A stretch of 64,000 bases of DNA, from NCBI RefSeq assembly GCF_003287275.1, contig NZ_QEVW01000006.1, forward strand, positions 496,001 to 560,000, written 5' to 3'. Each line of letters opens with the position of its first letter. Positions within the stretch are counted from its first letter, which is position 1. A program made the position numbers and the translations under genes. Below, piece by piece: positions 51,846-53,908 of the stretch. The notes beneath the pieces were generated by a model. The model was not told the origin of the DNA, searched no databases, and saw nothing but the letters and a program-made list of their open reading frames with translations. This DNA comes from Paenibacillus taichungensis (GTDB lineage Bacteria > Bacillota > Bacilli > Paenibacillales > Paenibacillaceae).

Positions 51846-51902
51846 GTTAGTCGGTTAGTTACTCATGTGACTAACTATAGTACACGGATACCAATATGTA
51901 AA
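51846..51902 (-). promoter_or_regulatory. Promoter and operator repeats of the YtrA-like operon
   Basis: On the minus strand TTTACA (51897-51902), 17 bases and TATAGT (51874-51879) form a sigma-A promoter. Just downstream GTTAGT occurs at 51846-51851 and 51854-51859, with its complement ACTAAC at 51870-51875. This gives a 6-10-6 inverted repeat plus a direct repeat, as expected for a YtrA-type operator. Confidence 0.75.
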
Positions 51903-51913
51903 TAGGCGAAGCA

Positions 51914-52084
51914 CTAATTAATCAACTTTTTCATTTTGGCTCGATTGTATTGATTAATAAGACCGTCCAGAACTAAAGATTGCTGGATGACTTCAGGATG
52001 AAGCAGACTGCCGTATTCCGACTGCAAGCGGTGAAGCTGTTGTCTGGCTTCTTCGATCTGTGACATTAACTCCAGGCAATCCAT
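51914..52084 (-). CDS. Spo0E-like aspartyl-phosphate phosphatase
   Basis: This 56-residue protein starts at ATG 52082-52084 behind AAGGAGGGG. It is a two-helix protein with the Spo0E signature as SLVLDGLINQY (the SxxLDxLIxxY pattern). Such proteins remove phosphate from Spo0A-P and delay sporulation. It sits between the quorum-sensing-type regulator/peptide unit and the YtrA-like operon, all on the same strand. Confidence 0.88.
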   Translation of the reverse strand: MDCLELMSQIEEARQQLHRLQSEYGSLLHPEVIQQSLVLDGLINQYNRAKMKKLIN

Positions 52085-52178
52085 AGTACCCCTCCTTTTT
52101 GTCATATTTTAGTTTATTATGCCAATCGATAGGCCGCAAGGGGTACGACATACTTATTCTTCCACCAGACGCAAAAAA

Positions 52179-52208
52179 GACGCCTCTGAATGTATATTCA
52201 GAAGCGTC
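52179..52208 (-). terminator. Terminator closing the regulator/peptide operon
   Basis: GACGC and TCTGAAT pair with ATTCAGA and GCGTC; on the minus strand six T residues follow. It lies 14 bases after the peptide stop codon. Confidence 0.88.
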
Positions 52209-52212
52209 CCTT

Positions 52213-52236
52213 GGTTTAGGCTTATGTCCCTAAACC
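52213..52236. repeat. Inverted repeat over the peptide gene's 3' end
   Basis: GGTTTAGG (52213-52220) pairs with CCTAAACC (52229-52236). It covers the last codons of the peptide gene and could be a second stem in front of the terminator. Confidence 0.55.
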
Positions 52237-52320
52237 GTGGTCATTAGTTCGGTAAATTGAAGGGTTCGGAACTTCCTCAGTGGGGACAGGTCCAATAACA
52301 GGTGCAACGATGTTCACCAC
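52222..52320 (-). CDS. Candidate quorum-sensing peptide precursor, 32 residues (AloP/Phr-like position)
   Basis: The frame opens with tandem GTG codons four bases after the regulator stop and ends 14 bases before a strong terminator, so it fills the space exactly. It begins VVNIVAPVIGPVP (hydrophobic) and ends IYRTNDHGLGT. There is no strong ribosome site; translation is likely coupled to the regulator. Its position directly after a TPR regulator is the standard arrangement of RNPP-type signalling peptides. The C-terminal DHGLGT resembles in pattern the SHGRGG signal I recall for the Alo system of Paenibacillus polymyxa. The N-terminus lacks the charged region of a classical signal peptide. 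Confidence 0.6.
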   Translation of the reverse strand: MVNIVAPVIGPVPTEEVPNPSIYRTNDHGLGT

Positions 52321-52324
52321 TATA

Positions 52325-53707
52325 CTACATGTAACTATCAGCAAAGCCAGCTTTCTCTTCATTGAGTTTCTGCACCTCACTAATCAAATTTTTGTACTGC
52401 TGTATAGCTGTGTCAGACGCATAATCCCTATATTGCTCAAATAGCCCGACACCTCTAAGCATACCTCGTCCGTCACTAATTTCAAGTGAAAACCTCAAAC
52501 TATTTAGAACAAAATCTATTCCCTTGGCAAATTCATCTTTTTTAAGGTAATAGGTTCCCAATCCTGCCAAGAGGCGAACATATCGATCATCCGTTACCCG
52601 TTTACTAACTTTCCCAATTCGATTACTTTGTTCTTGATAAGTGAAGTAGGATTCGTATTCCTTTAGTACATAGTCAATATTCATATCATAGCGGTTTGCA
52701 GCAGTCACAATGTCACACAGTGCAGGGAAAATCTCATTTTCTTTCGTTGAGATGTAATCGAGATAGTCAGGCAATATCTCAAACTGACCAGCCATTAATT
52801 GATATATATAGCGATTTCCCTCAGCCCATTCCTGAAATTGATTAATGACAACCATCTCATCCGAATCAGGCTCTTTTACCCAACTGTAGTCCGTATATAA
52901 AGAAACGTATTTCAGTGCAATTTCATAATTATTTAGATGAAAGTTAGCACTTCCAGATGCCAAATAGGCATACATAATATAAAAGATAATCGGTCGTTTC
53001 GTTTCTTCCTGTTTCCTTCTCCCATTCAACTCATAATGAATGGTCGCTTTTACTTTTAACTTTTCAGAGAGCTCCTGAACCTTGCTCCACCTGTGAAGAG
53101 ATGCAAAGGCATTGATCAGTTCGTTGAGCGCATCCAGCTGATAACGCTCATCCAGCCGATCCACGTAGTATTCGAATTGGGCCGCGATGATTAGATTTCG
53201 TTGCTGATCATTGGTCAGCCCCAATCTGAATAGTCGATACTGACATAGTGCAAGCCGTTCAGAGTGTTGCATTTTCTCACTTTCGGCTATCGTTTCATAT
53301 AGTAGAACGGCCGGTTTGAATTTACCAGCATGATAGAATTCTTCAGCCAGATCAAATAACAAAGGAATATAAGATAGATTATCCATCATCAGCCGGATAA
53401 CATCTTCAATACAATTCAATTTATCCAATTCTGCACATCGATGAAGGAATGGTCCCAGTCTTCGCCAGTCAGGGGCAGCATGGACAAAACACTCATCTAT
53501 ATACAATTCATAGAAGTAACCTTCCTCAAGGTTCATAGCTGAAGTGATTCGGTCCAGCTGCTGCATCGCAATCGGACGATTCTTGTTCAAAATATTGCTC
53601 AGCGTACCCGAGTTAATTCCTGACGTTTCCGAAAAAAGACTAATGGACATCTGCTCACGCTTCAGATAACTCTCTAAATGATCGCGTATCGTGGTTGTCG
53701 GCTCCAA
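52325..53707 (-). CDS. XRE/TPR regulator of the RNPP (AloR/Rap/AimR-like) type
   Basis: This protein of about 460 residues starts at TTG 53705-53707 behind GGAGGG; the frame is open to 53761 without a ribosome site. A Cro/C1-type helix-turn-helix (about 5-65: LESYLKREQMSISLFSETSG, NSGTLSNILNKNRPIA) is followed by some 380 residues of helical repeats. These contain TPR-like units such as LAEEFYHAGKFKPAVLLYETI and LGTYYLKKDEFAKGIDFVLNSL. That is the build of peptide-sensing regulators (PlcR, NprR, AimR, AloR). The downstream mini-gene is its likely signal. Targets are unknown; the adjacent Spo0E-like gene is a candidate. Confidence 0.82.
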   Translation of the reverse strand: MEPTTTIRDHLESYLKREQMSISLFSETSGINSGTLSNILNKNRPIAMQQLDRITSAMNLEEGYFYELYIDECFVHAAPDWRRLGPFLHRCAELDKLNCIEDVIRLMMDNLSYIPLLFDLAEEFYHAGKFKPAVLLYETIAESEKMQHSERLALCQYRLFRLGLTNDQQRNLIIAAQFEYYVDRLDERYQLDALNELINAFASLHRWSKVQELSEKLKVKATIHYELNGRRKQEETKRPIIFYIMYAYLASGSANFHLNNYEIALKYVSLYTDYSWVKEPDSDEMVVINQFQEWAEGNRYIYQLMAGQFEILPDYLDYISTKENEIFPALCDIVTAANRYDMNIDYVLKEYESYFTYQEQSNRIGKVSKRVTDDRYVRLLAGLGTYYLKKDEFAKGIDFVLNSLRFSLEISDGRGMLRGVGLFEQYRDYASDTAIQQYKNLISEVQKLNEEKAGFADSYM

Positions 53708-53766: not shown

Positions 53767-53795
53767 ATTATATGTAATAATTAAGCAAGGGTCAA
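53767..53795 (-). promoter_or_regulatory. Strong sigma-A promoter of the regulator/peptide unit
   Basis: TTGACC (53790-53795), 17 bases, TATAAT (53767-53772) on the minus strand. Confidence 0.8.
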
Positions 53796-53908
53796 TAAGA
53801 TAAATTCAACTAATTTGTATTAATTACAAAATAATCCTTTTGTTAAAATAGAGGCCCTACTCTTATTTTATACCGGGAACGAATAAGCATCAAATAAAGG
53901 ATAAAATA

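Follow-up and report, generated by a model that had tools for sequence, protein, structure and literature searches.

Voichek and others described the Alo family of Paenibacillus, in which an HTH-TPR receptor stands together with an adjacent or overlapping gene for a short secreted precursor (PMC7425212). In the Alo13 system of P. polymyxa, the AloP13 signal was found to be SHGRGG, which is active as a hexapeptide, and the AloR13 receptor was reported to activate the neighbouring spo0E-like gene by direct control, with SHGRGG shutting spo0E off and also lowering the expression of other aloP genes of P. polymyxa (PMC7425212). The same paper, which worked with P. polymyxa strain ATCC 842, gives 1,050 AloR-like hits in 149 bacteria and at least 16 Alo systems in P. 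polymyxa (PMC7425212), and the family was included in later RRNPP surveys (PMC10075063, PMC9765709).

Here, we describe a locus of Paenibacillus taichungensis found in a window of 64,000 nucleotides, this being the whole stretch of DNA that was analysed. We consider that this locus encodes an Alo-type (RRNPP) peptide quorum-sensing receptor–signal pair, with a probability of about 0.9, and, by its homology, gene order and codon-level constraint, it is an additional member of the already described Alo family having DHGLGT as its signal variant. Our literature search found no paper on a DHGLGT signal, and the locus may already stand in published supplementary tables. The features of the locus are the following:

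53810..53829, minus strand: candidate operator block TTGTAATTAATACAAATTAG upstream of the aloR promoter, conserved, a full palindrome in 4/16 loci checked.
53767..53795, minus strand: aloR promoter TTGACC-17-TATAAT, from consensus match and orthologue alignment.
52325..53707, minus strand: aloR-type receptor/regulator of 460 aa, read from a TTG, with an HTH at the N-terminus and a TPR superhelix.
52373..52378, minus strand: GAGGTG, presumed aloP ribosome-binding site inside aloR; GAGGTGCA is identical in 48/48 orthologues, a stretch also constrained by the aloR reading frame.
52222..52362, minus strand: aloP-type signal precursor gene of 46 aa, ATG start, in another frame than aloR and overlapping it by 38 nt.
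52297..52362, minus strand: presumed signal-peptide region MKRKLALLIVTCSIVVNIVAPV, read from the sequence, its extent judged by eye.
52225..52242, minus strand: codons of the presumed mature signal DHGLGT, pS 0.716 and pN 0.046, with D, H, G and G invariant in 48/48.
52213..52236, minus strand: inverted repeat GGTTTAGG-N8-CCTAAACC, a possible RNA hairpin spanning the last aloP codons and the stop (suggestive only).
52173..52209, minus strand: intrinsic terminator in the aloP/spo0E gap, 14-bp stem, -20.4 kcal/mol, followed by a T run.
52100..52127, minus strand: candidate promoter/operator block GATTGGCATAATnnnCTAAAATATGACA upstream of spo0E, conserved, without a clear -35, its role putative.
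51914..52084, minus strand: Spo0E-like gene of 56 aa, ATG after GGAGGGG, Pfam PF09388 with E 5.9e-13, above the cut-off.

The start of the spo0E-like gene was taken as the ATG after GGAGGGG, the automatic ORF call beginning at 52105. Further along, a near-palindromic TTAGTCACATGAGTAACTAAC (window 51854-51874) lies before the gene of a GntR-like regulator and has a similar copy in related loci; it is perhaps the own operator of this regulator.

The regulator frame given in an earlier note on this DNA was confirmed at its full 460 codons from the TTG, and so was a promoter-like sequence upstream of it, which has 11/12 consensus matches and sits in a conserved part of the orthologue alignment, some orthologues having TTGAAA instead of TTGACC; the promoter scan as a whole gave 7 such sites vs. 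6.7 in shuffles. A receptor match was found in 75/75 genomes of the genus (E <= 1e-10), and full-length orthologues with 78.7-100% identity are present in 48/75, counting the own genome; the nearest named match is the receptor of P. taichungensis DSM 19942 (98%, in a scan that may omit records lying very close to the window), and other named orthologues come from P. amylolyticus, P. xylanexedens, P. pabuli, P. illinoisensis and relatives. The receptor profile was matched by 145/295 genomes belonging to 5/19 genera of Paenibacillaceae. The own genome holds five receptor matches, namely this gene, an intact paralogue, a broken receptor in two pieces and a weak 26% match, and each P. polymyxa-like genome whose best hit is at 45-48% has from 17 to at least 22. 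In these comparisons, 14 of the 15 best hits listed for the P. polymyxa-like group were used, leaving out G018 because of its internal stops, together with six of the paralogue rows at 58-64%; alignment A1 took 26/46 named loci, L126 and L127 being excluded for internal stops and the others as near copies, as partial or by choice.

The relationship to Alo is best seen in four receptors (L076-L079) located ahead of SHGRGG precursors, which are 33-34% identical to ours over ~460 aa (E 2e-90 to 8e-93) and, in 4/4 cases, precede a Spo0E-like gene. These full-length homologues give good support to the reading of the earlier note, i.e., an RNPP-type receptor followed by its signal gene, related to Alo and with an xHGxGx tail like SHGRGG; the SHGRGG named there as an Alo signal is indeed the published AloP13 peptide (PMC7425212). 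From the SHGRGG tail and the Spo0E neighbour, we infer that these four loci correspond to Alo13. They were chosen by the receptor gene in front and not by the SHGRGG pattern alone, and the SHGRGG-stop pattern by itself occurs at 18 places in 13/75 genomes vs. 38 for the reversed control, thus without any excess. In addition, a plasmid receptor of P. polymyxa ATCC 842 is 42% identical to ours and is overlapped by 35 nt by an annotated 43-residue CDS whose start is signal-like and whose tail is GYIGGA, so that not every Alo-like precursor ends in HGxG; tails of the xHGxG type are found at many further receptor loci (e.g., NSHGLGS, NGHGMGS and VHGGGSL). The scripted precursor search found none at L121, L127, L133 and several tandem receptors.

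Pfam gave no significant TPR on the receptor and only a sub-threshold HTH (HTH_26, E 0.0017, below the cut-off), and PHROG 2439 “transcriptional regulator” matches residues 5-71 with E 1.1e-6. The AlphaFold2 model made with 27 sequences (pLDDT 90.4, pTM 0.81) is all-helical, with a predicted TPR superhelix preceded by an N-terminal helical domain that fits an HTH. In VIA-align, this model matched NprR (Z 14.9, rmsd 7.1, 314 aligned) and RapI (Z 14.7, rmsd 7.4, 315 aligned), and structural comparison with AimR gave Z 12.6 and rmsd 19; since generic eukaryotic TPR proteins come out on top (LGN, Z 18.2) and outscore NprR and RapI, the predicted fold argues for a TPR receptor but does not establish RRNPP membership. 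PDB sequence searches with the single receptor sequence or the 27-row profile returned no solved RRNPP receptor at E up to 1, but only marginal matches that were unrelated or HTH. A Foldseek search against viral models gave one strong match, S5MC02.

What we observe here are the genes, their homology, the codon-level constraint and the conserved order, and from these we infer a joint transcription of the pair, the path of the signal from export and cleavage to uptake and binding, and the sign of its regulation, as follows. The TTGACC/TATAAT promoter would co-transcribe aloR and aloP, with aloP being translated from a start within aloR; the 46-residue precursor would be exported and cut before its last six residues, and the resulting DHGLGT would be re-imported, by an oligopeptide permease as in RRNPP systems in general, to bind the TPR groove of AloR. 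By analogy with Alo13, free AloR would activate the spo0E-like gene, which lies past the terminator, from a weak promoter, and the bound signal would turn it off, so that at high density the Spo0E-type phosphatase would fall and the phosphorylation of Spo0A could rise. Taken alone, this spo0E regulatory step is, by that analogy, reasonably likely.

The Spo0E-like gene lies downstream in 43/48 orthologues (41 by the motif scan, plus L053 and L054 by a looser scan). Neither scan found spo0E in the other five (L028, L029, L036, L037 and L039), where a short stretch leads to the next, GntR-like, gene and where L029 and L039 retain the leader remnant ATGACAAAGGAGGGG; on the receptor tree the five fall together (support 89/93), and they keep both the receptor and the signal tail. 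The pair is also kept without spo0E in the named loci L103 (P. illinoisensis), L108 (P. xylanilyticus) and L109, of which L103 and L108 are named equivalents of this group. Because the five spo0E-less orthologues preserve the pair, spo0E cannot be the sole target there, and this leads to a variant within the main reading in which the pair is a true Alo system with its main output elsewhere, in its own promoter, in other alo genes or in unlinked genes, spo0E being just a frequent neighbour. The reported lowering of other aloP genes by SHGRGG (PMC7425212) also speaks for this variant, and so does the strong terminator between aloP and spo0E. The latter is a hairpin with a T run starting 12 nt past the aloP stop, where 14 had been noted before; it is found by the criteria used in 44/48 orthologues, being missing in L046-L049, and 52173..52209 is absent from the output of a simple consensus scan. 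With this terminator ahead of spo0E in 44/48, spo0E probably needs its own promoter, and the conserved promoter-like block in front of it, which lacks a clear -35 hexamer, would suit an activator, although it does not prove one. Given this block, the frequency of the downstream spo0E and the direct spo0E control demonstrated for Alo13 (PMC7425212), we regard a main output elsewhere as possible but rather doubtful.

A shared AloR operator, TTGTA-N5-TACAA, was considered and rejected, given that it occurs in 4/16 loci checked, always upstream of aloR and never before spo0E, and that with one mismatch it appears 3 times in the window vs. 2.08 by chance, without excess. No operator common to the aloR and spo0E upstream regions was found in the orthologue alignment, the 16 loci checked or the window.

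Turning to the precursor, the two in-frame GTG codons four bases past the receptor stop and the frame end YRTNDHGLGT were as first noted, but this frame extends upstream into the receptor gene, and the 32-codon gene proposed there is only the 3' part of it. The start of aloP is the ATG at 52362, which lies 38 nt before the receptor stop codon ends and is preceded by GAGGTG, and the full precursor is MKRKLALLIVTCSIVVNIVAPVIGPVPTEEVPNPSIYRTNDHGLGT, of 46 aa. Its N-terminus MKRKLALLIV, judged by eye, is a charged, hydrophobic and ordinary signal-like start, so that the earlier suggestion of a missing charged start, with possibly unusual export, finds no support. The ATG at -38, the GAGGTG, the open frame and the signal-like start are all kept in 48/48 orthologues, so the short GTG-start precursor without a signal start is ruled out. 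The precursor is of the short signal type (MKRKLALLIVTCSIVV, its helix judged by eye) in 48/48 orthologues with 46-51 aa, its length being 46 codons in 43 genomes, 49 in three and 51 in two; length changes are only of +9 nt (3 genomes) or +15 nt (2 genomes), never out of frame. In the part that does not overlap aloR, the aloP frame is open in 48/48 and the other two frames in 0/48, which indicates more than chance. Pfam and NCBIfam have no family for the AloP precursor. The earlier note had named the lack of a conserved frame or of codon constraint as what would refute the pair; we found the frame in 48/48 and a pS of 0.716 vs. a pN of 0.046 in the signal codons, and, as judged from this conservation, the short frame is a real, conserved signal gene paired with the receptor.

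The constraint is concentrated at the C-terminal end. In 41 distinct nucleotide sequences, the last six aloP codons have a pN/pS ratio of 0.064, vs. 0.63 in the linker and 0.50 in codons 14-22, and the codon just before the last six has a pN of 0.467. The tail pattern [N/A/F/T]DHG[LF]G[TS] is present in 48/48 orthologues (ADHGFGT 21, NDHGLGT 19, ADHGFGS 4, NDHGFGT 2, FDHGLGT 1 and TDHGFGT 1), and the L/F residue requires a single change on the receptor tree. The residue before the last six varies (N, A, F or T) while the last six are near-fixed, as expected at a cleavage point, and the codon pattern corresponds to the footprint that a C-terminal hexapeptide signal should leave. Within the main reading, it could also be that the mature signal is longer than six residues, e.g., RTNDHGLGT, or is cut elsewhere, given that an R or K stands three residues ahead of D in 48/48 (R 45, K 3), that the longer AloP4, P9, P15 and P16 pieces may undergo further processing (PMC7425212), and that the P. 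polymyxa-like L055-L068 have SHG[LM]GG internally with a tail behind. However, replacement sites become near-fixed exactly where the last six codons begin, and AloP13 acts as a hexapeptide (PMC7425212), so that we find a longer or differently cut signal unlikely. The third explanation, in which the short frame has no function and simply results from the overlap and the terminator, the regulator sensing something else, can use the fact that the first aloP codons overlap aloR, their conservation thus saying little, but it is extremely improbable in view of the open non-overlapping frame, the low ratio in the last six codons and indels solely in multiples of three.

In the best P. polymyxa-like relatives, L055-L068, SHG[LM]GGW stands inside the precursor with ~9 further residues, and the signal may be internal or longer there.

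A separate observation concerns the signal codons and the hairpin over the aloP stop. The element GGTTTAGG-N8-CCTAAACC or a variant, with all eight positions pairable, is present in 20/20 L-signal orthologues; all eight pairs form in 9/9 distinct sequences, and the pairing drops when slid, whereas covariation analysis found no pair with a counted two-sided change, and the pair count is not significant, 317/500 shuffles scoring as high. An identical element occurs in L052, 22 nt behind the stop of an F-type gene, and a variant lies 16 nt behind the stop in L050 and L051. Within the L clade, GGT, GGG and ACA keep their silent positions in 17/17 distinct sequences, while the neighbouring I, T, D and H codons vary, and the codons just upstream of the hairpin are near-fixed too (R as CGA and N as AAT, 16/17 each). 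A hairpin spanning the signal codons and the stop is therefore suggestive only. Tentatively, the signal codons of the DHGLGT clade might also serve as one arm plus the loop of an RNA hairpin over the stop and before the terminator, locking the signal sequence to the transcript end or to read-through into spo0E, with the L/F switch maybe arising from capture of the hairpin by the gene; we would hold this to be improbable as it stands.

Related loci were observed elsewhere. In the own genome, contig C7 carries a second Alo locus (L006:860-3560) with an intact receptor (42%) and a precursor ending VHGGGGL at -38, and the intact pair is followed by a broken second receptor and then by a Spo0E-like gene; L129, L131 and L132 have several tandem receptors with a Spo0E-like gene behind one of them. 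Brevibacillus phage Emery (KC595516.1, L141:1896-3379, gp60-gp61) has an AloR-like gene (24% over 68% of the query, E 8e-11) and, behind it with 74 nt between, a signal-like ORF of 43 residues containing HGGIGW twice (...SAHGGIGWISGDIKPFHGGIGW). This ORF resembles an Alo-type signal carried by a phage, with its ligand duplicated, and a gene with an agrB family annotation is nearby. Brevibacillus phage SecTim467 (KT151957.1, L140:2161-3984, gp68-gp70) has an AloR-like gene (27%, E 8e-41) closely preceded by a Spo0E-like gene, and its overlapping short ORF gp68 is not signal-precursor-like. Spo0E and DNA-binding homologues in B. laterosporus are noted in the phage paper (PMC4909266).

We suggest that the locus offers a testable candidate signal, DHGLGT (DHGFGT in sister species), together with its receptor for the P. 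amylolyticus/pabuli/taichungensis group, in which an Alo-type locus is a conserved core gene pair beside a sporulation phosphatase. With five receptor matches, the own genome may be a simpler case for the study of Alo than P. polymyxa with at least 16 systems, and the spo0E-less sister clade provides a natural experiment on the Alo target.

Compared with the known systems, the locus resembles Rap-Phr, NprR-NprX, PlcR-PapR and AimR-AimP in its predicted TPR receptor, an adjacent precursor presumed to be exported and a putative short C-terminal signal; NprR and RapI score about Z 15 against the predicted fold, below unrelated TPR proteins. The difference is that neither the receptor sequence nor its profile matches a solved RRNPP receptor at E up to 1. 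With Alo in general, it has in common the family-wide gene order, a short ORF overlapping the receptor gene and a restricted range (5/19 genera of Paenibacillaceae), and it differs in the DHGLGT variant and in the five receptor matches of its genome, in contrast to the 17 to at least 22 of P. polymyxa-like genomes. With regard to Alo13, the signal is SHGRGG there and DHGLGT here, the overlap is 50 nt at L076-L079 and 38 nt here, and Alo13 was experimentally tested, whereas ours is a core locus of the P. amylolyticus/pabuli/taichungensis group known from sequence. Both share an HTH-TPR receptor, a short precursor of the secreted type directly after it, a C-terminal xHGxGx hexapeptide and a Spo0E-like gene next to the pair.
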